A DNA stretch of 64,000 nucleotides from Pyxicephalus adspersus (Eukaryota > Chordata > Amphibia > Anura > Pyxicephalidae). Positions 1,005 to 25,900 of the stretch are shown piece after piece. Position 1 is the first letter of the stretch, and each line of letters opens with the position of its first letter. Both the position numbers and the translations under genes were made by a program. The notes beneath the pieces were generated by a model that was not told the DNA's origin, ran no database searches, and saw nothing but the letters and a program-made list of their open reading frames with translations. Location of the stretch: the NCBI RefSeq assembly GCF_032062135.1, contig NC_092859.1, positions 39,680,308 to 39,744,307 of the forward strand, written 5' to 3'.

Positions 1005-1010
1005 TTTATT
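1005..1010 (-). terminator. ZP4 polyadenylation signal overlapping the stop codon
   Basis: The minus strand reads GCT TAA TAAAATG, so AATAAA shares its first two bases with the stop codon. The 3' UTR would be only some 15-25 nt. Mammalian ZP genes are also known for almost absent 3' UTRs, which supports the call. Confidence 0.8.
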
Positions 1011-1166
1011 AAGCATTTACAGAGGTCAATGGACAATTTTCTGTTTTGCTTTCAACTCTGTTCCATCTTCTGTACAGGCTAGAACCAACAAGGATAACTG
1101 CCAAGACACAGCCAACAACTGCTGTTCCTTTCAGCCAAAGCATGTAGGGACTAGAAGCCAGGTCAT
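1009..1166 (-). CDS. zp4: ZP4 exon 12: transmembrane anchor, tail and stop
   Basis: 158 nt, residues 496-547 and a TAA stop at 1011-1009. [19 protein letters not shown] is the membrane span, followed by a basic RRW and a 20-residue tail ending TSVNA. Acceptor TTGGCATAG. The same exon, minus its first 40 nt or so, is present at 13.5 kb. Confidence 0.9.
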
Positions 1167-4100
1167 CTATGCCAAGAAATAAAAAGTACATTTAAAGCAC
1201 AAACATTTACTTACAAGTAAAACATGTAGCCATATCTCATCAGTTTTCACTGGTTTAGTAATGTGTGTGAGACAAGCAGTTAACAGTCTTACAATTTCAT
1301 AAAGCAATCCAAACTGTACTAGATGATTTGGGAATGTAGAATTGTACAAAGGTCCATCTGTTTTAGCTTAATAAAGTTATGCCCTCCCCCCCATATGACC
1401 AGAAGCAAGCTCAGCCCTGCAGTTTCTGCATTCCAATTGCCCCTCCAGATACGAGGTCTGGTTGGAACATGTCACTACACCATGAAAACCAGATAAGAAA
1501 GGGGTTTTCAAAATGACAACCAAGTCAACTATAGGAATTCTAAAATTTGCTTCCTACTAAAAGCTTATTTAGATTTAATGACTAGAAGTCCATATATCAC
1601 ATAATTTTATATGTTTTTTTTTGCTGGTTACAGTATAAAAGACTAAGCCTAGTATGGCATCCATTATATACACACATATTTTCCTTAAAATTTGTATTGT
1701 GAATCCTACTGCACATTTAAGTACTGTGAAAAAAGTTTTAAACATTACATAAACAAATGCTCACCAGTCTCCACTTCAGCAAGATCTTGATCTGAATCAA
1801 AGGCATCATCCCCACTGAAGATCACAGGTCCATCAGAAGTTACAGTTAGTGATTGCCTCTCGACCGTATTAGCCATTCTCCCTGCAATAAGACAACTCTG
1901 GCTATTAAAACTGGAATCAGATCAACTGTGGAAAGTCATGAGAGCAAAAAGCTTTAGAGTGACTCTAATGCAACAACTATATCTGTTAATTAGAAGGAGT
2001 TAAACTATACTAAACATGATCCAAAAAGAAAGTATGGAAAGCCAGAAAGTTTAGAATAGGACATTTAAAGCCATCCTACTTTTCCTTTGTGGGCAGTTCA
2101 CAATGCAGGAATCTGTAGCAGATGGGACACATACTGAGGCGCTGCAGTGAAAGAATACCTGTAGGAGAAAAGGCAATATCTCATCACTTAAGCCACAAAG
2201 CAAGAATCCATTTAAGGTACAAAGTATTGTATCAAAGAATCATTCCCCTTTATTGGCCAATCACTCACTTTGAGATGCTGAGGTTAACTTGTTTTCTCAT
2301 CACTAATGATAATTAAAAGGCACTATAATTTTACTTTTTATTCTGTGTTCATAGATACTGGCATAAAACATACAAAATCACCAACTGTATTACCATCTTC
2401 TGCATCATAAACATATGAACAACAAGCAGAATGACTGAGCACAGGCAGTTTTCAAAGTATTAACAAATAACCAAAGAAAGAAATAGAAAGCAAAATAAAA
2501 GAGGGGGAGGGGCACAGCATTGCAGGCCAGATTGAGTAAAGAGCAATAATTCAGTGATATCCTCTGCATTCAAAACAGATCGGCATTATCAGCCCCACTG
2601 TATTCTGAAAGGTATGCTTGAGTAGTGGTATACCGTATCCAATAGAACCAAGTATTTCGGTATTTATCCGTTCTACCATCCCGGCTGGTAATAAGGTCTT
2701 TTATTGCCATAATGTCATTTACTCTTCTAAACAATTGTAACAAGGTGGGAGGAGTGGATTGTTTTCACAGGGCTGGAATACAGGCCTTAGCAGCATTTAA
2801 AAGATGTTTGAGTAGAGAAGCATCTTGTTAGACCAATCATTTAAATGTAAAAGGGCTAGCTCCGGGCTGTTACATATATCTACTAGATTCCCCGCTCCCT
2901 CCATGAACGAGACCTAGGATCTGATGCGCCTGGGGGAAACACCAGGTGTCCCAGAATAGGAGACAGTGGCGAAGGGTAAGTACACACACCAGAGACCCTG
3001 AAATAATTCTGCACAACACGGAGGGTTGTTCCTATCAGGGGCAGCTTGAGAATGGGAGATGATAGTGTCTGGAGAGGACCACATGGCCCCTGCTAACGGT
3101 AGATTGGTAATGGCTCCCTCAAGCCTTACCCATGGCTTAAGGTCTCCATTTCTGCACCAGTCTATCAATGGTCCCACATGTGTAGCCTGGTGGTACAATA
3201 GGGGGTCAGGAAAGGCAATACCCCCACACACACACTTTAGGCAACCTTAAAACCCAGCGCCGGATACGAGGGCTGTCACCCCCCCCCCCCAGACAAAGCA
3301 GAGAAATTTCTGCCTAAACCTGCATAGTACCTGTTGTGGGATATAAACCGGGAGGGTTTGAAGCAAATATAGCAATCTCAGCATAATATTCGTTTTCAGA
3401 ATATTGCATCTACCGAACCATGAGAATGCATGTTGCTTCCACCTCTGCAGGTCCTGTTAACCACTGAGGACAAATCCTCAGTGGAAATCCTCAGTGGTTA
3501 ACCACTGAGGACAAATCCTTAGGGATCCTGGTGCCCAAATACAAGATATCTGATTTTGCCCACTAAAAAAGGAAAGCACGGTGTCAGGGAGTCCACTAAC
3601 GAGCAGGTAATGTAATGGATAATGCCTCTGACTTCTGCAAATTAGATAACACTGAATATCTATGGACCTCATGTAATAAATTAGGCAAAGAGACCCTAGG
3701 AGGGGAGGAAAAAAAAAAAAAAAAACCGGCATAGGCTGCCACTTTATGCACCTGACCATGTACAGCAATCCCATGAATACTTGGGGGTTTGCTCTAACTT
3801 GCCTCAGAAAATGTTCCAGGACCAGTATAAATGAGAGGAGACAGGGGCAGCCCTGTCGTAAAAGGCATTCTTGATAACCAAGTTTTCAACTGTCTTACCA
3901 GTCCACCAAGAGCAACCTGGGTGTTGGGATCCACAAAAGTAAAGGTGCTGACCATAAAACGCTGGTAATGGCTCGGAAAAGCTAAGTTTTCTGAAGGTGC
4001 TCCAACAGCAAGCCTTTCAGTCAGGTAGTTGTCTCCAGGAAATGGGCAACTTAAAAAACAAAATAAGCTAGTTTGTAAAGCTCAATTTATTTGTGGTAGT

Positions 4101-4318
4101 ACATGATCCTCTCATCTAATGCTACTTACCCATTAAACAAGATTGGCCATTGAGGATCATCAATTGGATTAGCAGAATTGGTTGCCCAGCAATTGTCCAA
4201 GACAAGAACCAGGTTGGGATCATTTCGGTTTAGAATATGAACCTCCACAAAGACAGGTTCTCGGAGCACTTTTACTATGGGGTAGTCTTCTTCAGCAAAG
4301 TATGAACTATATGCTCCA

Positions 4319-4360
<42 letters not shown>

Positions 4361-5704
4361 TACTTACATCATGGTCAGAAGCACAGAATTCAACTATTGG
4401 GCATGACTAATCCTGTATGTCACTGATGGTCTACACTGCCATTTTTAATTAATTGTGTTATGTAAATAAGTACACAATAGACTAGTAGCAGCTTTATATG
4501 TGTTATACCAACAAGCTGCATATAGGCATTGCCCATTCTATACATCAGATCATTTACTTTTACATTAAGGTTAGAAGATTAATCTTTATGGATTGATATA
4601 CATTACACCTGTATTCCATTCACCAAGGTGGCAGACATGCGCCCTTACAAGACAGGGTTTCCAGATTTAAATGAGCAAGAGGCCCTATCCCACAATAAAT
4701 GCCCTTTCCTCCTGGGAGCAGGTGGGTCTGGTTCTCATGTCCAGGGGAGGGGGGCACTACATGATTCTTGCCCTTTTATTTGGGAAAACCAGATCCCTAA
4801 TGACTTTTGAAGGGAAATGGGTTTGATGCCTCCTTAACTATCCAGGGTGTGTCCCTAGTCTATTGAAGGGTCAGGTTTCACAATCATGGGGGGGAACATT
4901 CCCTTTTTTAACTCGTAACAAAGGACCCCACATGACAAGCATTTTGTGCCAGAAAAATACTGTTTTTGTGATAAGTAACCCATTTTAGGGGTGAATGAAT
5001 AAAGAGATTTAGTGAAAGGTTCTATTTTGAATGTATGTGCAATAAGGGATTGAAAAAATATTTAGAAATAAGGATATTTTCTTTAGGACCCCATTCCCAA
5101 TTATGTTGGTCAGTTTAGAAATGGGGTTTAGTAGTAGATGGTCCAATTTATTATAATAGAAACCATGATTGAGCAAAAGTTGATTTAAGGTTTCCTTAGA
5201 GATGCATTGTATATTTTTTAGATATTACATGTTGTAGTGCCCTGTATGGACTCTTTCCCCCTAACCCCCACACCTGGTCAATAGTGTCCATCTTGCTTTA
5301 GCCACACCTGGCCATGCCCTGCCCACCATTTTCAAATGTGGGAGTTTATGAGTGACAATTGCCATACAACACATTACCTGTAGCTAGTCTCATTTCCAGA
5401 AAGAGAGGTCCTTGAGTGGACACTGGAGATGGTGGTGGGAAGGTCAGCACTTCGATTTCCAGAGGGACAACATCGGTTTTTCCATAAGTGCAGCGGACAG
5501 TTATTCTAAGTCAGAGCATTACAATCCAAATTAACAAAGTTGAACAAGCAATGGTTTGTGCCAAATGTGGAAAGGCAAGGTCATACGTTTGTATACTTCC
5601 ACTTTCCAAATCTGGTATCTTACCTTACAGTGCTGTCCCTTGTGATAGAGTATCCTTGCCATGTTTGTATTACTTTTGTTGCAACAAGTGTGCTTTCATA
5701 GATC

Positions 5705-5746
<42 letters not shown>

Positions 5747-7884
5747 GATATGCTTACATAATGGTCAAAAAGCACAGAATGCAACCATTGAGAATGACTA
5801 ATCCTGTACTTCACTCATGTTCTACTCATTTTATTTAATGGTATAGGTATACAAGATAGAAGTTCACATGATAGATTAGTAGCAGTTTATATGTGTTATA
5901 CCAATAAGCTGCATATCAAAGGCATGGCCTGTTCTTATACATCAGATCATATCATTAAACATGTGCATTAGTTAAAATTAAAATATTTTGTTTAATTAAA
6001 TCTTATATGGATTGATCATTAACCAAGGTGGCAAACACCTCCCCCTATTAAACAGGACTTCCGGGTAAAATAAGCAAATGGCCAACATTCATAGGAGAAC
6101 ACAAGCCTTAAAAAAAACCCACATGACCAGGATTTTTGCAATAATCCATTTTAGGCGTGTATGAATAAAGAGATTTGGTGAAGGTTTTGTTTTGGATGTA
6201 TGTGCAACAAAGGGATGGGAAAAATATTCAGCATTAAAGGAACATATCTTCAAGATTCCTTTCCTAATTATGTTGTCCAATTTAGAAATGTGACTTAGTT
6301 AGCAGATGGTCTAATTTATTAGGATAGAACCACCAACTGAGCAAAGTTGATTTATGGTTTCCTTAGAGATGCATTGTATATTTTGAGATATTACATGTTG
6401 TTGTAGTACAACTGTATGGATCCCTTCCCCAACCCCCCTCCCCCCACCTGGTCAATAGTGTCCATCTTGCTTTAGTCACAACTGGCCATGCCCTGCCCAC
6501 CATTTTCAAGTGTGTGAGTTTATGGGTGACAATTGCCATATAACACATTACCTGTAGCTAGTCTCATTTCCAGAAAGAGAGGTCCTTGAGTGGACACTGG
6601 AGATGGTGGCGGCAAGGTCAGCACTTCGATTTCCAGAGGGACAACATCAGTTTTTCCATACGTGCAGCGGACAGTTATTCTAAGTCAGAGCATTACAATT
6701 CAAATTACCACAAGTTGAACAAGCCATGGTTTCTGCCGAATGTGGAGAAAGCAATGTCATACGTTTGTATACTCCCATTTTCCCCAAATCTGTTATCTTA
6801 CCTTACAGTGCTGTCCCTTGTGATAGAGTATCCTTGCCATGTTTGTATTACTTTTGTTGCAACAAGTGTGCTTTCATAGATCATGTCATCAAGAGCCTGT
6901 TCAAATAGGGGAAAAAAAAAAAAAATGACCAATCTACCATGCAATTGGTTTTAGTATAAAAACAGTGACTACACCAATATGATAAACCAGCTGACTTTCT
7001 TCCATCCAACTCCCCTTCCTGGTTCTCACCAATTAACATGCTAACAATACAGGCCATTTTTTATTTTATGGTCCAAGAAGATTTATTGCCATTTAGACAG
7101 GGCAACGATCCCCCCCCCCCCCCCCCCCAACTCCTGCTTTCAGCAGTTTCTCCTCAATAGCCATTATTCAGTCTACCATACTTGTTAAATATATCTTACC
7201 TGGTTTACAACATTGCATGCCAAAGGAAATGTAAAGCCAACAAATGAGTTGGTTTTTGAAACGCTCAAACTGGGGCATGAGGTGGAGTCCACACCAATCA
7301 AACTGACTGAATCCAGTATTAAAGATGGCAACGTGAGGTCTTTGGACACAACCACCACCATGTTGTTGTCATCAGTACATTGGGCAGTCACTATAAAAAG
7401 AAATGCACGTTAGTGGAAAGACTCACCATCATTTGGCTTCCATTACCTAAAAGCAAATACTAGAGACAAAAAAAAAAAAATGAAACTTCTGGCCCTAGAT
7501 AGCCACTTGATATGCCTGCAAGTGGAACATTTGTTTAAGCCATCAATAACCCTCCACTGCAGTACTTTGTGCGACACACACACACACACACACACACACT
7601 TTACATTGGGTGATATTTGCAAAGCTTCAGGAAAATCATTGTAATGAAAACAAATCTAGTTATCCATTGTTCACCTTTAGAAAATATGAATCAGATCTCA
7701 GATACCTTGGGACAAGTTAAGCCTTTATACACAGACATCTAAGGCTGGGTCTATATGGGTGTTTTTTAAAACATGTAAATGTTCCTATTGCATTTAAAGT
7801 GCTGGAAAACGCCTATGCTGCATTTTCAACTAATTTCCATATTAAGTGTTAAATGCAGGAAAATGTCCCTTTGAAATCAATAGA

Positions 7885-7924
<40 letters not shown>

Positions 7925-10101
7925 ATTGCAAGCAAGAGCCAAAAACGTGCCTCAAGGAAACATCCTGGTGTAAATTAATCCATTGGGATTTCAAACAAGG
8001 GCTTTAAAAGCCTCAGGTTAAACATTGGGGAAACAGCCCATGTGGAGCAAGCCTAAAATAGTGTTTCAAACTTACATTTATTTCCATAGTAACAGGGATT
8101 TCCAGGGTCATTTTGTGTGTAGCAACATCCAACACCTTCACAAAGCTCTCTGGACACACTTGTGTTAGCACATGGCATACGGTCAGCTCTTGGGATAGCA
8201 GCACATTCATCAATACTGGGAGCATCCATTGCTTTGGAAAAATTATAGTTAGTACAAGGCAGCAATTCAGGCAATACTGTACACACCCCTTCCTCCCTAT
8301 TCCATATAATTGTTCTTTTATCAGACTGCAATTCAACTGGGATGGTATGTGATCCCTACAAATGGGGTGTTAGTTGGCCAAAGATTTGTCATGTGGTAGG
8401 CCAGACCTCTGGAATTCATTAATATATAGGCCCAAACAGGTAAAAACGCAAGCATAGCAAGGCCAAGTACAGAAAAAAAAAAAAAAAAAAAATTCACATT
8501 CATGTAATGCACCACAGATTTGGGACTGCCACACACACACTAATCAAATCCAGATTTTAAGTCAAAATTCACCTGGAAGAAGTGGGCACTTGAGATCCTT
8601 TTTGTGGTACTGGGGTTTTCCATCATGGAGAACTTCTTCTAGACTGATAGTCATAATGTGTTCCCCTTCCTGAAGTCAGATAAAAGCCAAAGTACACGTT
8701 TTAAGCAGTTGAAATAGAAATAGTCTCATCAATTGTACACCCATCCCATACCTCAATGTCCAGCGACAGGGGAAATCCCCCCAGTAGAGGAGATGGTTTT
8801 ATTGCCAAGATGCTCCATATTGAGAACTTATTCAGCATGAAATTTACTGGAAATAAGAAGTCACACAAACAGAACATAGTTCTGAATGGATAGGTTAACT
8901 TCCTTTCAATGTTCTCATTCACCCCCATGAACTTGTCAGTAGATAAATAGAAGGAAATCCTCCTAACAATGCTCATATGAGCCCACCTTTGTTTTAAAAT
9001 TTAATCCAAAACAAAAGCAGGTCACACCAAAGCTCAGGTAAACTAAAAGCCTGGAAATTATGCATCAACCACACCAAGACCATCATTCCAGTCTTTTCCT
9101 ATTTCAACCAGAAGGTTTTCTATGAGGTAATTGAGCTCCCACCATTTTTGCCAGCTTACCTGTTCTTTGACAAAGCAGCCATCAAATGAAGCAGTAACCA
9201 TTATAGATCCATCAGAATCCTGTCCTACCCATGTGCCACAGGCTGAGCTATTATGCAGATAATGAGGTTTTCCATTATGATCTAAAAAATAAAGTTATAT
9301 TTTAGTAAGTTGCTAGACAAGTGCAGGTTTAGGGCACCTGAATAATATTGGCATGTGTTCCTATTTTATTCTGACAAAGAATTCAGTCAAAGTATTAGGG
9401 ATTGAAGAACATTTTTAAAGCTTACATACATGCAAAACCCTTTTAGTTTTAAATAGAGCAGAGAAAGGTTAGACCCCTGTCACCATATACATACACAAAC
9501 ATTTTTGAATCTTCTATACTTTAGACATGGTGGCTGCATTAGCCATGGGAATGGTCTGATGGACATTTGACACTCAGCAGAAGACCTTCCTCTAAGCTTT
9601 ACATGTAGTATGCATCATGGGTTACAAAATTAAACATTAAAGCCAAGACCTCAGCATGCTAGTTATAGCACAAACATAGAACTATAATCCCCCATACAGA
9701 GGTAGAAAGGTGTGGGGTTGGCAAGTCTTGGGATGCAACAACTCATTTACAAAAAAGTGCTGTGTATTAAACAACCTGTACTGCAGTCTAATAGGACCCT
9801 GATCCCATTCATTTAAAGCTCATTCTATAGTCTGACCAGTATATTCATTTACTATAAAGGCTCATTTACAGTGACTGGCACATCCACAAAAAACACAAGT
9901 AACATTGATCCTAGAAAACAGTAAATGCTACTTTTACTCACCTATAACAGATAGCACAAAGGCTGCATCATCCAGAACAGAAGGAAGAGAATATTGCATG
10001 TAATCATACCCACAGCGCAAGCGGGATGGATCATCCCAAGAATCCAAACCACCAGCCACAAAACCACAGAGCCAAAGCACCCCTACAAGAGCCAACACCA
10101 T
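1009..10101 (-). CDS. zp4: Zona pellucida sperm-binding protein 4-like, 12 exons, complete
   Basis: Egg-coat glycoprotein, secreted by the growing oocyte and polymerised through its ZP domain. Coding exons in transcript order: 10101-9942, 9281-9160, 8669-8573, 8231-8076, 7390-7200, 6896-6802, 6679-6552, 4319-4130, 4049-3899, 2158-2080, 1881-1765, 1166-1009. All borders are GT/AG, phases agree, and the sum is 1,644 nt (547 residues; human ZP4 is about 540). Order of parts: signal peptide 1-18; Cys-containing N-terminal region (ZP-N1-like) to about 125; trefoil 131-176 with Cys 136, 147, 157, 162, 163 and 173; ZP domain from about 183 to 452; furin site RKRR 455-458; hydrophobic patch GPVIF near 474-478; transmembrane 509-527; 20-residue tail. 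The trefoil plus ZP layout without a long Pro/Gln-rich insert favours ZP4 over ZP1. Exon 7 also has a second copy at 5378-5505. Confidence 0.9.
1167..1764. other. ZP4 intron 11
   Basis: About 600 nt, AT-rich; nothing else recognised. Confidence 0.6.
1765..1881 (-). CDS. zp4: ZP4 exon 11: propeptide after the furin site
   Basis: 117 nt, residues 457-495. Encodes [18 protein letters not shown] and [20 protein letters not shown]. The GPVIF segment corresponds to the external hydrophobic patch that blocks early polymerisation of ZP proteins until the propeptide is cleaved off. The rest is acidic. Acceptor TTATTGCAG, donor GTGAGC. Confidence 0.86.
2080..2158 (-). CDS. zp4: ZP4 exon 10: last ZP-C cysteines and first half of furin site
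   Basis: 79 nt, residues 431-456 plus one base. Encodes [18 protein letters not shown] and IVNCPQRK. The HCSASVC block is typical of ZP-C. The chosen donor is GTAGGA after AGGAAAA; joined to exon 11 it gives RKRR, a furin cleavage site where this family has one. A donor one codon later would destroy the site and the phase. Confidence 0.88.
2159..2899. other. ZP4 intron 9, distal part
   Basis: AT-rich sequence before the LINE fragment; GT/AG intron interior with no coding sequence or motif recognised. The portion from about 2,620 may be the LINE 3' end. Confidence 0.5.
2900..3870 (-). mobile_element. LINE-1-type ORF2 fragment in ZP4 intron 9
   Basis: Minus-strand reading gives reverse transcriptase pieces in order: RQGCP with FILVLEHF near 3,820-3,860, [14 protein letters not shown] with a [12 protein letters not shown] stretch near 3,350-3,430, and [18 protein letters not shown] with PLIDWCRN at 3,150-3,231. 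This is the usual layout of an L1/Tx1-clade ORF2 after the YADD region. Stops and frameshifts are frequent, so it is dead. Left end uncertain. Confidence 0.7.
3899..4049 (-). CDS. zp4: ZP4 exon 9: ZP-C subdomain
   Basis: 151 nt, residues 380-430. Encodes [14 protein letters not shown], then [18 protein letters not shown] and TQVALGGL. The FPSHYQRF block is a hallmark of ZP1/ZP4. Donor GTAAGA. Sequence of a LINE-1-type ORF2 begins only about 30 nt beyond this donor. Confidence 0.92.
4130..4319 (-). CDS. zp4: ZP4 exon 8: ZP-C subdomain
   Basis: 190 nt, residues 317-379. Encodes [18 protein letters not shown] and, further on, [14 protein letters not shown], the conserved ZP-C cysteine block, then WPILFNG. 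The acceptor lies directly against a run of about 37 T on the transcribed strand (A-run 4322-4358 on plus). Donor GTAAGT. Confidence 0.92.
4322..4358. repeat. Poly(A) run of about 37 next to the ZP4 exon 8 acceptor
   Basis: Homopolymer on the plus strand; on the transcript it is a T tract that ends in the acceptor AG of exon 8, so it also serves as polypyrimidine tract. Confidence 0.9.
5378..5505 (-). CDS. zp4: ZP4 exon 7, distal duplicate copy, intact
   Basis: Same length (128 nt), same phases and same splice sites as the copy at 6552-6679. The differences I can see in the coding sequence are three silent changes and one Leu-to-Phe change (VLTF for VLTL), so the reading frame and nearly all residues are preserved. 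Either copy can join exon 6 to exon 8. Which one is used cannot be told from DNA alone. Confidence 0.8.
5624..5706 (-). pseudogene. Broken duplicate of ZP4 exon 6
   Basis: About 80 nt matching exon 6 from TATGAAAGCACAC to the donor GTAAGAT, without a visible base difference. The first part of the exon and its acceptor are gone: after GATCAT the sequence runs into a TA dinucleotide tract (5708-5743) with no AG in range. It is therefore probably never spliced in. Confidence 0.8.
5708..5743. repeat. (TA)n microsatellite
   Basis: About 18 TA units; it has replaced the acceptor and 5' end of the duplicated ZP4 exon 6. Confidence 0.95.
6552..6679 (-). CDS. zp4: ZP4 exon 7, proximal copy
   Basis: 128 nt, starting in phase 2 and ending in phase 1. 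Encodes [18 protein letters not shown], then [14 protein letters not shown], to MRLAT. Acceptor GACTTAG, donor GTAATG. Because 128 is not a multiple of three, joining this exon to its duplicate at 5378-5505 would break the frame, so a transcript can carry one or the other. This copy has Leu where the other has Phe. Confidence 0.85.
6802..6896 (-). CDS. zp4: ZP4 exon 6: end of ZP-N subdomain
   Basis: 95 nt, residues 243-273 plus two bases. Encodes [18 protein letters not shown] and then a segment ending SITRDSTVR. This is the only copy of exon 6 with a usable acceptor (TTTGAACAG); the duplicate at 5.6 kb lacks one. Donor GTAAGAT. Confidence 0.9.
7110..7128. repeat. Poly(C) tract
   Basis: Run of 19 C in ZP4 intron 5. 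Confidence 0.9.
7200..7390 (-). CDS. zp4: ZP4 exon 5: ZP-N subdomain
   Basis: 191 nt, residues 179-242. Starts [18 protein letters not shown] and ends [12 protein letters not shown]. This matches the opening of the ZP module in ZP4, where the QCT motif carries the first ZP-N cysteine. Preceded by TTTTTATAG, followed by GTAAGA. Confidence 0.92.
7574..7599. repeat. (CA)n microsatellite
   Basis: About 13 CA units in ZP4 intron 4. Confidence 0.95.
7741..8060. mobile_element. MITE with imperfect terminal inverted repeats in ZP4 intron 4
   Basis: Ends AAGGCTGGGTCTATATGGGT and, inverted, AGGCTTGCTCCACATGGGC. The interior holds a 34-nt T run. The same left end recurs near 19,480. A non-autonomous DNA transposon is likely; superfamily not settled. 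Confidence 0.55.
8076..8231 (-). CDS. zp4: ZP4 exon 4: trefoil (P-type) domain
   Basis: 156 nt, residues 127-178. The six-cysteine trefoil pattern is complete (Cys 136, 147, 157, 162, 163, 173), including the core [18 protein letters not shown]. Trefoil domains sit just before the ZP domain in ZP1 and ZP4 only. CANTS holds an N-glycosylation sequon. Acceptor CCAAAG, donor GTAAG. Confidence 0.93.
8573..8669 (-). CDS. zp4: ZP4 exon 3: N-terminal extracellular region
   Basis: 97 nt, 32 codons plus one base (residues 95-126). Encodes [18 protein letters not shown] and then the segment leading to KDLKCPLLP. Acceptor TGACTTCAG, donor GTGAAT. The split codon with exon 4 gives Ala127. Confidence 0.87.
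9160..9281 (-). CDS. zp4: ZP4 exon 2: N-terminal extracellular region
   Basis: 122 nt, residues 54-94, entered in phase 1 and left in phase 0. Encodes [18 protein letters not shown] and on to DGCFVKEQ. The NSS triplet is an N-glycosylation sequon and the two cysteines belong to the ZP-N1-like region. Acceptor TTTTTTAG, donor GTAAGC. Confidence 0.88.
9282..9941. other. ZP4 intron 1
   Basis: 660 nt, AT-rich, no recognised element. Confidence 0.6.
9942..10101 (-). CDS. zp4: ZP4 exon 1: start codon and signal peptide
   Basis: Encodes residues 1-53 plus one base. The ATG at 10101-10099 opens [18 protein letters not shown], a classic signal peptide, followed by [13 protein letters not shown]. The frame stays open upstream through the promoter, but this ATG is chosen because it starts the hydrophobic signal and lies 42 nt below a TATA box. 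Donor GTGAGT. This exon is the one re-used in the collapsed copy at 13.6 kb. Confidence 0.9.
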
Positions 10102-10225: not shown

Positions 10226-10511
10226 AGGGGCAGTTTCATTTAACTCATTTGTAGCTGATAATCTTTAGGTGATTTGTGTTTATTATTTCACAGGTTTGTA
10301 TAAGGATGACTCTAGGTGATGCATCAAAAAAAATATCCTTTTGATGACTGAAACACAAAGCATTTCTATATAGATTATGAGAAGCATCCTTTAAAAATCA
10401 ATAGCAACTTTAATTTTTGCAGTTTCAGATATTTAACCGGAGTTATCATCAGCAAAGAGGGACATTAATGCTGTTGCACAGCAAGGCAATGCTATACTGA
10501 TTCTTTTTTTG
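10226..10511. other. ZP4 upstream flank
   Basis: No gene. This flank is repeated at 13,850-14,140 (shared blocks TATCCTTTTGATGACTGAAA and CAGCAAAGAGGGACATTAAT), showing that the duplicated locus carries several hundred bases of ZP4 upstream DNA. Confidence 0.7.
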
Positions 10512-10912
10512 TAGTGAAGTGTAGTGGACTGAAGTGGAGTGAACCTAAGTGATGTGGACTCAAATGGAGTGAGGTGAAGTGGACTGGACAAAAGTGGAGT
10601 GAAGTGGACTTAACCGAACTGGAGTGGAATACAGTAGTAGCTATGGTAGTGAGCCCAGGTATACTATGATTAAAGAACAACAATAAGGTGATGGGCAGTT
10701 TCATTTAACTCACTGGAGTGGACTGAACTTGAGCGGACGTAAGTGGAGTGGAGTCGACTTAAGTGGACTTGAGTGTAGTGAACTTAAGTGGACTTGTTTA
10801 GATTTGAGTGGAGTGATGTGGACTGAACTGAACAAGAGTGCAGTTAAGTGAAGTGGACTTGAGTGGACTGAAAAGCAGGGGAGTGGACTTGAGTGGAGTG
10901 GATTGGACTTAC
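10512..10912. repeat. GTGGA/GACTT-rich degenerate satellite
   Basis: About 320 nt built from 5-11 nt variants such as GTGGACTTGA, GTGGAGTGAA and AAGTGGAGTG, in two blocks (10,512-10,637 and 10,712-10,905) either side of a ZP4 promoter fragment. Confidence 0.8.
10638..10711 (-). promoter_or_regulatory. Third copy of the ZP4 upstream promoter segment inside the satellite
   Basis: Shares CTATGGTAGTGAGCCCAGGT and GGGCAGTTTCATTTAACTCA with 10,178-10,245. It holds the E-box region only; both E-boxes are mutated (CAGGTA, AAGGTG), and the TATA and CCAAT boxes are absent, so it is probably inert. Confidence 0.8.
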
Positions 10913-12806: not shown

Positions 12807-12822
12807 GGGGGGGGGGGGGGGG
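12807..12822. repeat. Poly(G) tract
   Basis: Run of 16 G inside the duplicated ZP4 3' flank; the parent flank has only GGGGG at the matching place. Confidence 0.9.
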
Positions 12823-13510
12823 TCATTGCATTCAAGACCATGCACCGCTGAGGTCCTGGCTCTGGCCCAGTCATTAGAACCACCTGGTCAACATAGGCCA
12901 TTTGCTCAGAACAAACTCTCACCCATCCAGAAGGTACTTGGGCAAGCAGGGGGACCTCACCATCATTAAATACAGCAAGCTTGCACATAATGTTGTATTA
13001 TGACAGATGGGTTCCGAACTAATGTGTACTTTACCATCCTGTGTCAGAAGCATGCACCCAGAGAGTTCCCATTCTGTATATTCTTGCTTACCATTTCCTG
13101 TAAAAACTATTTTCACTGTTCAACCACCCAAGTTAAAAGTTACCCAGCTCCCAAAACATAGAAGTCTTGATAGAATGCATATGTGGACAAAGTCCTACAT
13201 TGTCCCTTCTGTTCCCCAGTGTCAGATGTGTTATGCCCCCAAAAGACTTCATCTTGCATAGATCTGTGCCTATTTAAATTGCTGCCTGGCATCTCCATCT
13301 GGGCCAATTTCAGGTTGTGTCACCTGTGAAGTAATAGCTGGGGTGTCCCAGTTGTGGAGTGCCTAGTAGAAGCAAGAACCTCACTCCCTTGTACTGCTGG
13401 AAACTATCATATTCACCTATTTAACACCTCAGTTTTAAATTTGACAGAAGCTGTACATGAGACTCCATTATCATTGACAGAACCACACAATATTTTGAAA
13501 AACAGCTCAT

Positions 13511-13516
13511 TTTATT
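13511..13516 (-). terminator. Poly(A) signal overlapping the microgene stop
   Basis: AATAAA overlaps the TAA stop (13517-13515) by two bases, as in the parent ZP4 gene. Confidence 0.7.
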
Positions 13517-13727
13517 AAGCATTTACAGAGGTCAATGGACAATTTTCTGTTTTGCTTTCAACTCTGTTCCATCTTCTGTACAGGCTAGAACCAACAAGGA
13601 TAACTGCCAAGACACAGCCAACAACTGCTGTTCCTCCACAGCGCAAGCGGGATGGATCATCCCAAGAATCCAAACCACCAGCCACAAAACCACAGAGCCA
13701 AAGCACCCCTACAAGAGCCAACACCAT
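13515..13727 (-). CDS. ZP4 exon 1/exon 12 fusion microgene (70 residues)
   Basis: One uninterrupted frame from the ZP4 ATG to the ZP4 stop. Residues 1-30 are the ZP4 signal peptide and first mature residues (ends SRLRCG); residues 31-70 start [19 protein letters not shown], the ZP4 membrane span, and keep its whole tail. Trefoil, ZP domain and furin site are absent, so the product would be a small type I membrane protein of about 52 residues after signal cleavage. The deletion happens to keep phase. TATA, CCAAT and E-boxes upstream and AATAAA across the stop are conserved. Whether it is expressed, or only a pseudogene still open by youth, cannot be told here. Confidence 0.6.
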   Translation of the reverse strand: MVLALVGVLWLCGFVAGGLDSWDDPSRLRCGGTAVVGCVLAVILVGSSLYRRWNRVESKTENCPLTSVNA

Positions 13728-13768
13728 CTTTCCAGCAGCTACCAATACCAGCACTAGCTGAAATTCAC

Positions 13769-13851
13769 TATTTATATGCTGAATCAGTAATATGATTGGA
13801 CAGCTATGGTAGTGAGCCCAGGTGTACTGTGATAGTAACAGCAATCAGGTG
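13769..13851 (-). promoter_or_regulatory. Promoter copy of the ZP4 microgene
   Basis: TATAAATA at 13776-13769, CCAAT at 13799-13795, E-boxes CACCTG at 13824-13819 and 13851-13846, with the same spacing to the ATG (42 nt from the TATA box) as the parent promoter. Confidence 0.65.
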
Positions 13852-14140
13852 AGGGGCAGTTTCATTTAACTCATTTGTAGCTGATAATCTTTACACAAAA
13901 CTTTTTGATAATATTTTGTGTTTAATATTTCATGTATTTGTTAAATGATGTCTCAGTATAAGTGATGTATCAGAAAAAAATATCCTTTTGATGACTGAAA
14001 CACAAAACATTTCTATATAGATTATGAAAAGCATCCTTTAAAAAAAAAGTCACTTTAATTTTTGCAGTTTCACATATTCAACCATCATCAGCAAAGAGGG
14101 ACATTAATTCTGTTGCAAAGCAAGGCAATGCTAAGCTGAT

Positions 14141-15886
14141 TCTTTTTTATGTATTTTTATTGTAAATAGAAAGTTATAACAGAGTCCAATACAACCATAA
14201 AGGGGGATATAGAATACTACATAGGTAAATAGGATACAAAAAGAAATAAAGAGACAAACAACAAGTCCCAAGTCTGAAAAATACCAATGTCAATGGCTTA
14301 GCAATGATAAGATCAGCAAACTATATTACGTTTCATCAGGTACATTAAACCAGAATGGTCAATGGCCCTCGTCTGCTAAACAGATTGTGAGAGTGATTTA
14401 TTATAATACTCAATACTAATCTATAAACTAGATTCTCCGATACTGTGACAGAGACCACTTCTTAATTGTGCATCTGTTTGAAGTCAAATTCTATCATATC
14501 TCTATTGGTAATTATGTTGCAGGCCTGCGAAATGTAGGTATCCCTTACATTTAAAAATTATGTTCTGCATACATACAATGATTGTTTGGTGCCTAAATGC
14601 AAATGTCATCTAAAATTTGGGTATAACTAAAACTATCAGGTTTTAGTTTGAATGAGGAGATTACACTCCTCATAAACTTTTTACAGTGATGCAAATCACA
14701 AAAAAAAAAAAAATGTGCACTGGTTTTTGATGATGGGTCACCAGTTCACTTTGTATAGCTCTTTCTCCAGGTTCTGAAGCAGAGCGCATAATCCATATTG
14801 TCTTCATGTGATTACCAAATAAATATCCTGTGGATCAGCACTTTCAATAAACAATACTGTGTTTGGATACTGGTGAATGTACTGCTGTTACCTGGAATAA
14901 TACTACAATCTACTACTAGTATCTGTGTCTTATTAGGGATATTTTCCTTCACTTCTTTTCGTGAAGATTCAACAGAAAGTGAGAGATTATATTTCCAATG
15001 TGAGAAAAAAGTTTCCCCATTACTGATTTCACTTCTATTCATGTTCTTGTTTTGACTTAGATCCTCTGGCACACAACAAAAGGATCCCAAAGTGCCAACT
15101 TCCTTTCCTTCCTTCATGCTGAGATGGATTTTTTTTGTATGCCTACAAGTGAAGTGGCCAGGCAAGCACTGGGTATGTGCGCTGCTGTCCCCTGCAAAGA
15201 GGTTGCCAAATCTTGGTCTATGGAAAAACAAACGTAATGGGTTGTGGAGGGTAAAAATATCTGAGATGAGACTAAAACACTGGAGCATACACTATTTGCA
15301 CACGTTAGTGGATTTCTCTATGTGCATAAAAGCTGAAACAAAATACTGCACAAATATGAGCTGGTTGTTCAGTCTACTCTGTAGATGCATCAATTTAAAA
15401 TCATCCTTGGGTAAAGTACAAACTCTTTCAATACCTTCTTCTAACTGTATACTGGCCTAAAAAATCTAATGCCCCAGTCACCTGACATTCAGACCACAAG
15501 TTTTCTGGCTTCCCTGTTTACAAAGCCATGGTCCTTCGTCAGGTTTCTACATTAGTCTCTTCCTATTGGCTTTCCAGTAGCATGGCTATTGGGAGGACCA
15601 CAGAGGCAAGATGCCATTGCAAGTAAGTCAGGGACTGGCTGGAGTAGACATTCATCAGCGGTCCCCCACAGACAAAAATGACACTGGCAAGAGACCTGAA
15701 TGGTGGGTTAGGGTATGTCTTCCTGCCCATGGTGAGGACAAACAGCCCTCTTAATATTGGTTAGAGGAGTGTGACATTTTTGAAAATTTGTGTCCAGAAA
15801 TGGGCTTATCTATCTATCTATTACATTACAAGGTGCTGGAATGCTCTGTATTTCAATGTTAGGCACCCACTACTACTGTGCCTTCA
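14141..15886. other. Intergenic, with an unassigned open frame
   Basis: No recognised gene. A 158-codon minus-strand frame at 14,812-15,288 (contains FTCRHTKKIHLSMKEGKEVG and ENIPNKTQILVVDCSIIPG) has ordinary composition but no family I recognise. A TCTA microsatellite begins near 15,808. Confidence 0.4.
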
Positions 15887-16936: not shown

Positions 16937-19900
16937 AAATTAACTAAATTTCTTCTTTTGCCTGCCAGCAATGTTTTTTTTAAATGTACGCTGAGCCATG
17001 CATGCACGGCTTAGTGTACAATCTTGGCATGCCATGGGCGCTGGGATGATTTGAGTCCAGTGCCCATGCGTAACAATTACATCATCCCATGTTGGCCAAA
17101 CCCAGAAAAAGACCAAAGTTCTCATCAGAGATTGAGGAACAGACATCACATCATTAGGGGGAAAATAAGTGCAGAAGGCTATTGTTCCTTTATAGAATGA
17201 GATTTATTGCCATAAGGGGTCAGAACAGCTGATACACAAATTCTTTGATAGGCTGTTGATCAATCAACAAACCCTTATACATAAAATTGTTTTTAATTTA
17301 TTTTCTTTTTGAAGTGTTGAATACAGATGTAAAGCTGTGTAGAAATGTTGGATTTCACCTGTCTAGCATCTGTACTCCACTGTGCTGGATCACTAAAAAT
17401 TGATATGAACTACTGCTGTTGTTTTCTAATGGGTATCTCCCACTTGTCCTCTCCCCTCCCCACTTTCTAGAACACAACAACATTACTACCATTAGTAATT
17501 GTTTCCAGCGACAAATATTAAGAATCTGCACAGGGCTTTAGTGTGTTCATTTTAATGTAATGTGTTGTTAGTTGTGTGCATGTATATATAATTATATACA
17601 GATTCTCCTCATATAACAACCAAGTTCTGTTCCCATGACCTTCTCATTAAGCAAATTGGTTGTTAAGTGAGAAGCACAGTAAAGAGCCAGACTGCAGCAC
17701 TAAAAGCATGGAGCATGTGTCGTGATCAGATCAATGACAGCCTGCAAGACCTGGATCGAGGAAGGAGCGGGAGGATCGTTAGTATGAAAGACGGAGCCCA
17801 GAACAATGAAGGAGAGACGCTGCTCTACTGTACACTGTAGGCATCATAGAGCTGTAAGTGTGAGCCATCAGTAAACAGGTATGTTGTTAAATGAGGAATA
17901 CCTGTATTTATTTAAGGCAAATACCATAATTACATGTGACATATGCACATCCTTTTTTTTGGAACTAAAATTGTAGAATGAGAGGGTGGATTTTACTTAT
18001 CATTCAAATTATCATTAATTTAATGTCACTTTATTTGGCTTTACAGCTAACTGTGAAATCAAAGCTAAAACAGAAAGAACCAGAGAGAAAAAGTTAGCTG
18101 GGGTGTCTTCTACAGCCAAGAAGCCTGAGCAGAATATTGTAAAACGCCCACCAAAAGCCAAACCCCCAGTGCCTCCAGGCCAGAGCCAGACAGGTGGGTC
18201 CATCCTTTCCCAAGTTCTGCACAGAGGGAAGTTCCAGCAGGTTGGTGACACAATAACTGTAAAGGCCGGACAGAATTTGGATCTTCGCTGCAAAGGGACA
18301 TCGGTCCGATGGAATTACCCCCATTACCTACGTGAGGATGATGAAGGAAGACTCAAGTAAATGCAGTTTGTAGAAATCTTTGTATAAGAGCATTTTTAAC
18401 AGCAACTATATTTGCAAATATATTTGTCAGGATCCATCCAAAACCAAGCTGCTGTAGCTCTGGAATGGTGTTAAAGGCAGTTACTGATGCAGAATATTTT
18501 TTTTCTGGTAATATTATTAAAACAAAGCTATTACTAGGCAGACTTTGCAGAAGAATACAATTGTCAGTCATAATGTATATCCAAAAATGAACCTGTAAAA
18601 AGAAAAGGTAGCTTTTCTGCTGATGGTGCCTAGGCTACTGTCCGCCCCCTAGAAATAGCAGCATATCCCATTTGTATATGGTTGATGTACTCATCTTAAC
18701 CTTCTAACTGCCATGCCTAGGTGAATATAAAGACAGATTTGTTCTGGGATAATCCCAGGGAATACAGAGCATCCCAAATCTCACTAAAGGATTTGTTGCA
18801 TTTGGCAGGAAAATCTCCTGTTGAGATTTGGCCTTCTCTGCATTCCTTGAAGGCTGGTGACATCACATTCATCAATGCAAAAGACTGTTGTACCTATAAA
18901 ATATAACTTTTTTACTTAAATGTAAATTTTTGGACATACTGAAACCAGTGATTTTTACAGGGAGTCCCAGAAATTAAAGCCAGATTTGTGTTATACTGCA
19001 AGGCCCAAATTTTGGGAACCTGTACTTTCGGAAATATGGTGGATTCTATTGTTGACCTTCTGAAAATGTTACATGGCTAACTGTTGCTTGATTTAAAGCA
19101 GAATTAAACCCTTTTTTTTACCCATCTGTCCCCATTCTGTCATGAATGCTTCCATTTTAAAGGGACCCCTTAAACCACTAAAACCTTGGCAATACTGCTT
19201 CACCCTGCTCCCACATCTAGAAGTAAAATCCCTAGTGACAGCTGGGTGTGAATGCTGGAAATATTGGATTGCCCATTCCTATGACCTTACAACTCGTTGC
19301 TAGACCAGACCACTGTTATATGGGAGGAGGTCACGTGCTCCATCATGCTAAAAAGTACCTGGCATTGTTAGCAGCTGCTGGGGCAGGACAGAAATGATGG
19401 TGAGGTATCAGAAGTTTTTAGTAGCCTTTTGAACAAGCATTGACATTGTGCCCTTAAGGGGAATATTACAGTGCTTCTTAAGGCTGGGTTTACACTACTG
19501 AATTGTATTAAAATCCATTGCCAAAATGCCCATAGCCATGCTGTTCATTACTAAAAAGGAGCAGAAATGGTTTTAGCTACCCCAGGTTGAGACCAATAAA
19601 AATAAATGGGTTTGGCGTAAGAATGAATTTAGAATGTATGCATTCACATACTGGACGAAAGCGAGCCCAATGCCTCTGTTATAAGTATGATAGGCAATGC
19701 CTATAGTTACAGAGGGTTTTTTTTCTAGTGTGTTTTTTCTTGTTCAGAATTTGTAAATATTTTAGTGTGATCCAGAACAGTGGTCGCTAACCTTTTGGAC
19801 CTCACGAACCACTAAATCTACGGAATCCGGACTGCGCACTCATGACCCAGAGTGACGTCATGATGCCAGAACCCGCACAATCTCCCATTGCAGGCTCAGA

Positions 19901-22900
19901 CCTGCTTGCTAACATCCTGGGGGGACAGCAGCACAGGGCAGTGAACGCAACAAAACTCTGAGCCTGCGATGGGGGGGGGTGGGCCAGTTGTGTCCAGACG
20001 GGGGACAGAGCTGCAGACCACCAAAATATTCTCGCATGGTCCGCTGACCACCGGTTGGCGACCAATGATCTAGAATCAGTGTATAGGTAACTAATATAAT
20101 TGTTGTATAGCTGAATACTGCCATCTAGTGGAGATCTTTAGCACATCCATCCACGTTTTGACTTACCAGTCTTCTGGGGGCTTCAGACATATGGGCATTG
20201 ATACAGATGTGTTTATTTAACAAACTTTACAAAAATGTAATGTGACAAATATTTTATAATTATTTATTTTTTTAAATTATTATTATTATCTGTCCTAATA
20301 TTATTTAATGAAAAACATACTTATCAGTCTAAGGGTAAACTTTAATTGGAGGAATCCATTAATACTAAACTCAGTCATGAGCATTGTGGATAGGAAAATG
20401 TCTGAATTTTGTGATGAACCATAAAGAAAGAACACAGCCCAATCACACAGCGCTTCAATTGTAAACCATGCCTATGCTATGTTATTTGGAAGTCCCTGTT
20501 AATCTTACCAATCTTCCACTTCTAGGATTAAACACTTTGGCCGGTACAGTCAGCTCATCGTGTCGAACACCACTGCCGCGGATACTGGTGAATTCAGCTG
20601 TGGTGGGTATCAGTGTGCTGGAGATGGCTGCCATGATGGTGAGGAGAAGACTGGCAAGACTTTCGTGTTTGTCACAGGTAATCTTTTTTATGTCCCCCAC
20701 CATGAATCTACATTACACATAAAAATAAATACAATTATTTCCACATATAACCCCCTTTTTGTTGGTAAGATAACATTCAAATGTAATTGATAGAATCCAA
20801 TAATTAAAAGAGATGTAAACCCGATCACTAAAATCTCATTCCAACATTAAAGTGTTTTTGTATTTTAAAGTAATTTTCAATTTTTTCAAATTTAAACTTT
20901 AAAATGTAAATTAATACCTTATGATTCTGCCATGATAGTTCTTATTCAAGTACGTTAAAGGGTCAAAACACTCACATCCTATCTTCAATTAAGCCTTGAT
21001 ATCCTGTGACATGGGACTTTTATGGAGAGCACAAGTACCTGATTCAACACACAGGTCCATTGTTGTCCTAAGGGGGCTCAACAATCTAATAACACACTAT
21101 AGCTTACCAAAGTACCTGGGTAATAGCATAAGTGCTTGTTTGTGAATGTTCCCGAATATTCATGTAATGGTATTGCTAGCAGTACATCTCATTCATCTTT
21201 ACTTGTTCTGCAATGTTAAAGATGTTTCACTGTTTATCTATCTTCAGTTCTATTGTGAAGAACATGCCTCAGGTATAATTGTTTATTGTAGTTTTGCTAT
21301 GAAGAGCAATTGGAGAACATTTCATTCATTATGGTATTTTATTACTATATTGTAATAAAGAAAATGTTTTAGGTTAAAGTTGTATGGAATGCATATGCAA
21401 TTGGTTTTAAATGATCAATACCTATGTTGTTTGTTCAGCATTAGTGCATTCATATAAGTGTTGTGCCAAAAAATAAAAAATAGACATTGCAAACCTGGAA
21501 TGGATTTCGTCAAAATAATATGCTATTAGTTGGCAAATGTTTTCAATCCTGCACCACATCCATTCTAGGTTTTTTGGTTCTTTCATGTTCTCCCATGATG
21601 GTCTTCCTTAGTCTTGGAGAGTTTTAATAAATCAGGCCAATTATATGGCCAATAAATACAGATCTGCCAACTCATTAGGAATAAGAAAAATTCAAAAGAA
21701 TTCAAAAAAAGTAGGGGGTGGTGTGGGTCACCTTCTCTCACCTAACTGTACATACAGAGCCCTTTCTACCCCACCTCTTTTGAAGTCCACTTTGTTCGTC
21801 TCTTTAGCACCTTACCCCTAATTGTTGCTGTTGTCTACCACCCCCTGGCCCAGTATCACAATTTTTAGATAACTTTGCCTCCTGGCTCCCACACATTCTT
21901 TCCCATGACCTGCCCACCCTCATCCTTGGTGATTTTAATGTTGCAGTGGATGAGCCCAACTTTCCCTCCTCTGCCAAACTGCTCTTCATTACCTCCTCAT
22001 TTGGACTCACACAGCACATCAATGGCCCCACACACATCGCCGGACACACTTTAGACCTGGTATTTTCAAAACCCTGCAACCTCACCGTCCTTGACAAATC
22101 ACCATATCCCCTCTCTGATGATAACCTTATCACCTTCAACCTATCAAACTCTTGCCCCCCCCCCTTGCTACATTCCAGACCTAGTCAATGGCAGAGAGAT
22201 ATCTGTAACCTTGACCTCAATCTTTTCTCAAATTGCCATGCGTCCCTAACCCCCTCCCTCTCCAAAATCACCTCCCCAGATGAAGCTGCCACCCTGCAGA
22301 AAAATACAATTGTCATTCGTAATGTATATCCAAAAGTGAACCTGTAAAAAAAAAAGGTAGGTTTTTACCTTCTCATCTTCTGCTGATGGTGCCTAGGCTA
22401 GTGTCCGCCCATAGAAATAGCAGCATATCCCATTTGTATATGGTTGATGTACTCATCCTAACCTTCTACCTGCCATGCCTAGGTGAATATAAAGCCAGAT
22501 TTGTTCTGGAATATTCCCAGGGAATACAGAGCATCCCAAATCTGACTAAAGGATTTGTTGCATTTGGCAGGAAAATCTCCTGTTGAGATTTGGCCTTCTC
22601 TGCATTCCTTGAAGGCTGGTGACATCACATTCATTATTAATAAATTATTATTAAACAGGATTTATATAGCGCCAACATATTACGCAGCGCTGTACATTAA
22701 ATAGGGATTGCAAATGACAGACTAATACAGACAGTTAAATGCAAAAGACTGTTGTACCCAAAACATATAACTTTTTTACTTAAATGTAAACTTTTGGACA
22801 TACTGAAACCAGTGATTTTTACAGGGAGTCCCAGAAATTATACCCAGATTTGTGTTATACTACAAGGCCCAAATTATTATTATTAAAGTAGAGAGTGGTG

Positions 22901-25900
22901 TGGGTCTCCTTCTCTCACCTGTACATACAGAGTCCTTCCTACCCCACCCTCTCTCATTTCACCTCTTTTGAAGTCCACTCTGTCCGCCTCTTTAGCCCCT
23001 TACCCCTCATTGTTGCTGTTGTCTACCGGCCCCTGGCCCAGTATCACAATTTTTGGATAACATTGCCTCCTGGCTTCCACACATTCTTTCCCATGACCTG
23101 CCCACCCTCATCCTTGGTGACTTTAATGTTGCAGTGGATGAGCCCAACCTTCCTTCCTCAGCCAAACTGCTCTCCATTACCTCCTCATTTGGACTCGTAC
23201 AGAACATAAATGGCCCCACACACATCGCCGGACACACTTTAGACCTGGTATTTTCAAAACTCTGCAACCTCACCCTCCTTGACAACTCACCATATCCCCT
23301 TTCTGATCACAACCTTGTCACCTTCAACCTATCGAACTCTTGCCCCCCCCCTTGCCACATCCCAGACCTGGTCAATAGCAAAGAGATATCCGTAACCTTG
23401 ACCACAACCTTTTCTCAAACTGCCCTGCTTCCCTAACCCCCACCCTCTCTAAAACCACCTCCCCAGATGAAGCTGCCACCCTGTTAAACTACTCTCTTTC
23501 CTTGGCTTTGGATAAAGTTGCCCCTGCCACCTTCCGATACCCCCCAGCCTGCCAACCCCGGACCCTGGGACAAAAATTACACCAAACAGCTACAAAAGAC
23601 TGTTCGTGCAGCTGAGCGTAAGTGGAGAAAATCTGGCCTCAGTGCCGACTTCATGGACTACAAAGCCAAGCTACAAAGCTTTAACACTGAGCTCACTGTC
23701 ACCAAGCAAAATTATTTCCCAGCTGTCAATTCCTCTCAAGCTTCCAACCCACGCAACCTCTTCTCAACAATTGACTCCCTCCTAAACCCCACACCTGCTC
23801 CCCCCAAAACAACCTTCTTTGCCCAAGACATTGCCACCTACTTTAGAGATAAAATAGACAAAATCAGACATGATATCTCTGCTCACCGAGCCACTCCAAC
23901 CATACCTACCCCTTCCACCTGTAAATCATCACTGGTCTCCCTCAGCCCTATTGCTGTGGACAAAGTCTCTTCTCTCATCATCTCCGTCTACTACATGTCC
24001 GCTTGACCTAATTCCCTCTGATCTACTCCGTGCCCATTCCTCCACCCTAGCCCCTGCCCTAACCGAACTATTCAACCTCTCCCTTTCTACTGGTAAATAC
24101 CCCTCCGCTTTCAAACATGCCATAATTCTCCCTATGCTAAAGAAACCCTCACTCACTTTCTACCAACTAACTACCGTCCTATCTCCCTTCTCCCGTATGT
24201 CTCCAAACTTCATGAACGCCTTGTCTACAAAAGACTCACCAATTACCTGAGCACCAACTCTCTCCTTGACCCTCTTCAGTCTGGTTTTAGAGCTGCCCAT
24301 TCCACTGAAACAGCCCTTACTAAAGTGGCCCTGCTCCTTGATCTTTCCTCTGCTTTTGACACTGTTGATCACCCCATTCTAATACAAATCATGCGCTCCA
24401 TTGGAATCAGTGACACTGCTCTCTCTTGGTTTGCTTCCTATCTATCTGACCGCTCCTTTCAAGTTTCTTTCAATGATAATTCCTCCTTGCCCACTCTCCT
24501 CCCTGTTGGTGGTCCCTAAGGGTCAGTCCTTGGACCGGTTCTCTTTTTTCTGTACACCTCCTCTCTCTGTAGTCTCATATCCTCCTTTGGTTTACAGTAA
24601 CATTTGTATGCTGATGACACTCAAATCTATCTGTCCATCCCTGACTTGTCCTGGATAAGGTCTCATGCTGCCTATCAGCCATCTCATCATGGAACTCTGA
24701 CCGATTTTTGAAACTCAACCTGGATAAAACAGAACTCATCATTATCCCCCTCCAAATTCCAAATATCCCACTGACATATTTCTAACTGTTAACAACACTG
24801 GTATTCGTCCCTCCCATCAGGCACGTTGTCTTGGTGTCACCTTTGACTCTGCCCTGTCATTTACCCCCCAAATTCAGAACATTTCCAGGTCCTGCCACTT
24901 TCATCTATGCAACATCCCCAAAGTCTGCCCCTACCTGTCCCCTGAGACCACCAAACTCCTTGTACACGCTCTTATCATCTCTCGTCTTGACTATTGTAAC
25001 CTCCTCCTCTTTGGTTTTCCACTAACCCAACTCTCTCCTCTAAAATCTATTATTAATGCTGCAGCCAGACTCATCCATCCTTCCCACTGCTCCTCTTCCG
25101 CTGCATCTCTTTGCAGATCTCTACACTGGCTTCCATTTCACCTTAGAATCAAATTCAAGCTCCTGTTCTTTGCCTTCAAATCCCTCCACAGTTCTTGTCC
25201 CATTTCCATTTCTGACCTGTTAAAAAATACTCCCCCCACCGCTCTCTCCGCTCCTCCAATGACCTAATAATGACTTCCTCACTCATAACCTAATTACAGG
25301 TACAGATGCAAGACTTTTCTAGAGCTGCCCCAACTCTCTGGAATGGTCTTCCTCGTCCTATTCGGCTTGCTTCTACTTTCTGCTCATTTAAAAGAGCACT
25401 CAAAACCCATTTTTTTTAAATTTGCCTACCCATCTTCTTCTGTCTTTTGAAACCATCACTACTTCCCACCACTTTATATCTCCCATCCAATTGTGTGTAA
25501 ATTCCCCCACCTACTAGATTGTAAGCTCTTCGGGGCAGGGTCCTCTCCTCCTGTATCACTGTCTGTATTCATCTGTCATTTGCAACCCCTATTTAATGTA
25601 CAGCGCTGCGTAATATGTTGACGCTATATAAATCCTGTTTATTAATAATAATAATTTATTAATAATAATAGAATACTAAAAACAGAGTTTTTTTTTTAGG
25701 CAAGTGTCATTTGTGTATATTTAGCATACCTGGTTCTTCAGGGGATGAACAGAAAATGTCAGATCAGCTGTACAATGAGATATGAAAATAAATACATAAG
25801 TATGATTAGTTACAAAGAATCTTTCAAAATGTAATGTAGTAATTCGTACAAACAGGACATGGTGCCACTTATTGTGAGACATGTAGTGGTTTCCAACATT

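Follow-up and report, generated by a model that had tools for sequence, protein, structure and literature searches.

Is an open frame that joins the signal peptide of ZP4 directly to its membrane anchor a new microprotein gene of the frog egg, or is it what remains of a dead gene copy? The question is raised by a locus of Pyxicephalus adspersus within a stretch of 64,000 nucleotides (hereafter the window, to which all positions refer), in which an intact ZP4 gene is accompanied by a tandem copy that lacks most of the gene. An earlier note on this DNA had offered both answers: a young pseudogene, or a new microprotein of the egg in competition for ZP processing or membrane sites.

The deleted ZP4 copy and its join

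The frame runs from ATG to TAA on the minus strand (13727-13515; 70 codons, 213 bp), and would specify a signal peptide, a 15-residue stub, a membrane helix and the ZP4 tail. It sits ~3.4 kb upstream of the start codon of the intact ZP4 gene, in the same orientation, and is identical to this parent at 213 of 213 bases. The exon 1-derived part comprises codons 1-30 plus the first two bases of the next codon (13636-13727, minus strand) and matches parent positions 10010-10101; the exon 12-derived part comprises one base, 39 codons and the stop (13515-13635, minus strand) and matches 1009-1129. Across the join the product reads RLRCG/GTAVV. The in-frame fusion reported in the earlier note was thus recovered with the same coordinates, strand and product, and its naming of exon 12 as the 3' source agrees with our corrected parent model, which has 12 coding exons.

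By base comparison, the deletion join (between 13635 and 13636, minus strand) is blunt: 8,880 bp of the parent (1130-10009) are absent, there is no microhomology, and the next base in exon 1 and the preceding base in exon 12 are both unlike the copy. An imperfect GCTT..GCTG similarity near the join was considered as microhomology and rejected, since its two sides are displaced by one base; along the diagonal of the join itself, no 10-mer matches at more than 3 of 10 positions, a value reached by 43,106 of 50,000 random joins. A join at an exon boundary, which would hint at an RNA-mediated origin (GTATGA follows the join), was likewise rejected, as the 12-exon model carries exon 1 beyond the join to 9942. 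The chance that such a join keeps phase is about one in three.

The intact parent gene

The parent ZP4 (1009-10101, minus strand) was modeled as 12 coding exons encoding 547 aa, with GT-AG borders and no internal stop: exons 1-6 at 10101-9942, 9281-9160, 8669-8573, 8231-8076, 7390-7200 and 6896-6802, and exons 7-12 at 6679-6552, 4319-4130, 4049-3899, 2158-2080, 1881-1765 and 1166-1009. An earlier 11-exon model (556 aa) was discarded after comparison with the P. adspersus protein P0001 exposed a missing exon (8669-8573). Ten GT sites were tested as the donor of exon 1: use of the GT at the join (10009) leads to a stop in exon 2, and two, at 10013 and 9941, keep the frame open into HNGKPH. We chose the donor at 9941 (TAG/GTGAGT), since the intervening CGYDYMQ...VLSVID segment is found in P0003 and P0004, the Mantella and Rana proteins.

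The protein, Pfam and PDB searches for the parent used the 11-exon model. In Pfam, this model contains the ZP1/4 Ig-like domain, a trefoil domain (PF00088), and ZP-N and ZP-C (PF23344, PF00100). The protein search gave at least 782 matches from at least 7,988 candidates scored, and the closest among the matches listed (the best 120 of 782) are two P. adspersus ZP4-like proteins, P0001 and P0002. The 12-exon model is 92.6% identical to P0001 over 513 residues and 89.7% identical to P0002 over 505 residues, both higher than the 86% and 82% of the 11-exon model. Both proteins start at Met35 of the parent, and so are without a signal peptide, perhaps through misannotation of the start codon.

Within the parent gene there is a tandem duplication of exons 5 and 6 and their introns (4976-5708 and 6142-6886, minus strand). 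The second copy of exon 6 (exon 6b, 5505-5378) is open, shares a 15-base acceptor context with exon 6, has GTAATG as its donor, and differs from exon 6 at 4 of 128 bases and in one residue; because each is 128 bp long, the two copies of exon 6 cannot be spliced together in frame. Exon 5b is interrupted by a TA repeat.

Other features of the window

Exon-like frames at 18019-18360 and 26904-27269 (plus strand) perhaps belong to one neighboring gene, which we take to be PDGFRL. A piece of the latter frame matches a VEGFR-1-like Ig domain (PF21339) and VEGFR chains in PDB, and a piece of the former matched no Pfam family. Frames that by eye resemble reverse transcriptases of LINE-like and Gypsy-like retrotransposons lie at 21808-25267 (plus strand) and 30498-32792 (minus strand), and a minisatellite at 62143-62776 consists of 17 copies of a 38-bp unit and is open in several frames. 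The window contains no match to Rfam and no tRNA detected by ARAGORN.

A near-identical core between diverged flanks

The copy is not uniformly parent-like. A core of 432 sites (13462-13893) covers the promoter, the frame and the poly(A) region; within it, only 2 sites differ from the parent, with 0 indels (0.46% divergence): none in the 213 bp of the frame, one in the 166 bp upstream (13792) and one in the 53 bp downstream (13481). Either side of this core, the homology continues at far greater divergence. The 3' flank (12818-13461, homologous to 236-955) differs at 72 of 519 sites over 12818-13340 (13.9%; 8 indel events), a rate that leaves out the poorly aligned 13341-13461, with which the count becomes 115 of 633 sites and 11 indel events. 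The 5' flank (13894-14153, homologous to 10268-10513) differs at 26 of 238 sites over 13910-14153 (10.9%; 5 indel events), a rate that leaves out a 16-bp gap (13894-13909), with which there are 6 indel events.

The contrast between core and flanks is strong by Fisher's test (P = 9e-18 against the 72/519 of the 3' flank and 1e-10 against the 26/238 of the 5' flank), and persists when the non-coding core (2/219) is compared with the 5' flank (P = 2.5e-6). None of 20,000 shuffles (160 difference events over 1,320 columns, the poorly aligned part included) reached 432 columns with two or fewer differences, the longest such run being 145. The synonymous sites of the frame are also unchanged (0/52; P = 0.0025 at the 10.9% rate), and dN/dS is therefore undefined for this pair.

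The flanks have the same order in the copy and the parent, with a tandem period of ~12.6 kb (12818 minus 236), and point to a genomic tandem duplication that produced a second ZP4 and is older than the identity of the core. A retrocopy is excluded, because the copy has its promoter and both flanks and is joined within exons 1 and 12; it does not answer to the description of a processed pseudogene (loss of introns at exon boundaries, absence of an upstream promoter, a 3' poly(A) tract). The copy does show the mark of an unprocessed pseudogene, being a genomic duplicate with homologous flanks that has lost the bulk of its coding sequence (8,880 bp). Its frame is open, undisabled by stops or frameshifts; on our reading, the ZP4 copy behaves as a dead one, yet is not dead by a strict frame test.

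That synonymous and non-coding sites of the core are as invariant as the rest makes copying from the neighbor a simpler explanation than selection on a peptide. From this one sequence pair, we infer that the core was probably copied, or homogenized by gene conversion, in the recent past. As to its source, the exon 12-derived residues of the copy are identical to those of the ZP4 in the window at 39 of 39 positions, whereas P0001 differs at 2 and P0002 at 5, which argues for the neighbor, or a copy like it. Among the matches listed, several frogs have multiple ZP4-like entries located on a single sequence, which makes exchange among copies plausible.

The open frame under neutral expectation

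A clean frame with intact signals is explained by the recency of the core. We simulated neutral change with 0.14 indels for every substitution, of which 80% break the frame, and made 20,000 runs per setting. The frame was still open in 92% of runs at 0.23% divergence on the branch of the copy and in 85% at 0.46%, and in only 15% to 0.8% of runs at 5.5-13.9%. An open frame would be notable had the core been as old as the flanks; at 0.46%, an unselected frame of 70 codons is expected to be open still, and the open frame of the copy is not evidence of function. The description of the copy as a young pseudogene accords with this result.

Regulatory signals

The TATA box (TATAAATA; 13769-13776, minus strand) lies 42 bp upstream of the ATG, and two CAGGTG/CACCTG E-boxes lie ~92 and ~119 bp upstream of it (13819-13824 and 13846-13851, minus strand). 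An AATAAA poly(A) signal (13511-13516, minus strand) overlaps the stop codon. All of these, read directly from the sequence, are the parent's own, and the copy and ZP4 have 165 of 166 promoter bases in common; the promoter and poly(A) signal had been called intact, and are. The copy may consequently be transcribed in oocytes at some level, as a short intronless transcript. In mouse and human ZP genes, an E-box lies ~200 bp upstream of the start site, according to one published account (PMC8391237); by analogy, the E-boxes of the copy, which are closer in than the mammalian ones, would act alike in the frog.

A third, partial copy of the ZP4 promoter (10639-10712, minus strand) is 87.8% identical over 74 columns, with the TATA box outside the matched stretch, and lies between minisatellite arrays. 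Having lost both CAGGTG E-boxes, it gives a picture of a decayed ZP4 promoter.

Predicted product

On our reading of the frame, a signal peptide of ~17 residues would be removed to leave a mature peptide of ~53 residues, with ~15 residues predicted outside the cell, a membrane helix and a 20-residue tail. There are two hydrophobic stretches (residues 1-21 and 27-51, with a 19-residue hydropathy above 1.6 within the latter), which together with the identity to the parent indicate a signal peptide and a C-terminal membrane segment. An AlphaFold model from the single sequence, of little weight, has helices at 2-19 and 25-60 (mean pLDDT 71.6).

The promoter, signal peptide, membrane segment, cytoplasmic tail and poly(A) signal are common to the copy and to ZP4/ZPB of the ZP1/4 subfamily; unlike ZP4/ZPB, the copy is without the Ig-like ZP1/4 domain, the trefoil, ZP-N, ZP-C and the furin site. 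ZP-N, ZP-C and the trefoil (PF23344, PF00100, PF00088) are absent from the 70-residue product by Pfam (E up to 0.1); matches to HIG_1_N and SoxE_N fell below the curated cut-offs and were taken as noise. The furin site RKRR, which in the parent precedes the membrane segment, is encoded across parent exons 10-11, which the copy does not have.

No candidate in the protein collection shared three words with the 70-residue frame (proteins of ~38-122 residues being eligible), and alignment with the analogous Mantella and Rana ZP4 joins gave 10 candidates and no match at E 0.01. Annotation frequently passes over small frames, and the missing relatives are for that reason a weak negative. A marsupial egg-coat microprotein is reportedly related to MSMB and, by title, unrelated to ZP4 (PMC3268785). 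In a limited literature search, partly of excerpts, no report of such a ZP4 copy was found.

These features bear on the suggestion that the product competes for ZP processing or membrane sites. One account describes ZP precursors as having a furin site and hydrophobic patches, and as losing a C-terminal propeptide at the plasma membrane (PMC8391237). The hydrophobic patches of ZP4 would lie in exons 2-11, all of which are absent from the copy. As the copy has neither the furin site nor exons 2-11, it would offer ZP processing no substrate, and specific competition at that step is unlikely; the absence of ZP-N, ZP-C and trefoil, and of any relative found, also speaks against the suggestion. That the product crowds a membrane or an export route is no more than conceivable.

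Origin of the copy and alternative explanations

In our view the copy is, with a probability of roughly 75%, what is left of a tandem ZP4 duplicate, young and not under selection; this verdict draws on one copy-parent sequence pair and the neutral expectation. An old tandem duplication gave rise to a second ZP4, the flanks of which have since diverged by 11-14%, and gene conversion from the neighboring ZP4 would then have homogenized the core. Two routes could have led to the deletion. In the first, the whole gene body would have been homogenized, followed by an ordinary end-joining deletion of 8,880 bp. In the second, a break in the copy would have been followed by the copying of a few hundred bases from the neighbor onto each end, and by joining of the ends (aborted gap repair). 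By either route, the join would have stayed in phase by the one-in-three chance. With its promoter and poly(A) signal intact, the copy may give rise to a single-pass membrane peptide of 70 residues, which would lack any ZP function and, most probably, any other function too.

Each route carries an assumption that counts against it: the first requires prior homogenization across the gene, and the second requires two tracts that meet at the join. Alternative end joining often uses microhomology, so that its absence here is a mild point against gap repair. In P-element gap repair in Drosophila, aborted products of synthesis (SDSA) are finished by alternative end joining, and short copied tracts flank an end-joined deletion, like the tracts here (PMC8951532). 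The Drosophila events are products of an assay, whereas here the process is read from the divergence pattern of one sequence pair, and an ordinary deletion in a homogenized copy explains the pattern as well as aborted SDSA does.

In its general form, the copy resembles unprocessed pseudogenes and partial tandem duplicates, which likewise have a promoter and flanks, an intact parent adjacent, and most of the coding sequence lost. Unlike typical unprocessed pseudogenes, it has an open frame that starts with a signal peptide, and its own promoter and poly(A) signal.

An unlikely alternative is that the deletion is old and predates the identity of the core, in which case two conversion tracts later happened to meet at the join. 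The divergence of the flanks does date the duplication itself as old; conversion would nevertheless have had to act at either side of an 8.9-kb heterology and leave the join in place, which takes more steps than a recent deletion in a homogenized copy.

We regard as quite improbable a functional oocyte microprotein gene under purifying selection, the 53-residue peptide of which would act in the secretory pathway or plasma membrane. The edges of the conserved core (166 bp before the ATG and 53 bp beyond the stop) count against an unselected remnant, since they would also fit a selected minimal gene: the core coincides with the promoter, frame and poly(A) region between flanks that are 11-14% diverged, and the signal peptide and the hydropathic membrane segment are intact. 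However, non-motif promoter bases are as invariant as the synonymous sites, a pattern that looks like copying and not like selection on codons; the product has no ZP module, trefoil or furin site; and the search for small relatives, though weak for short frames that often go unannotated, found none. Very doubtful is the more specific proposal of a new oocyte membrane microprotein that arose by in-frame deletion within ZP4, with the ZP4 oocyte promoter and with its identity held by selection or by continued conversion, which could occupy the export route or membrane sites of ZP4 and remain unreleased into the egg coat.

An assembly artefact, in which two tandemly arrayed ZP4 copies were fused into a chimera, has hardly any likelihood: tandem gene arrays are difficult to assemble, but the join is blunt with no shared bases, unlike a repeat-driven misassembly, both flanks are ordered correctly and similarly diverged, and the window contains no N.

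Implications for ZP4 evolution

The copy illustrates neatly why intact signals around an open frame are not evidence of function: the surviving part is nearly identical to its neighbor, whether coding or not, and there has therefore been no time for the frame to decay. The pattern suggests that ZP4 copies in P. adspersus exchange sequence, which matters for estimates of selection on egg-coat genes that are made from single copies. Should the peptide be demonstrated in eggs, the locus would represent an unusually simple way for a structural gene to give rise to a membrane microprotein.
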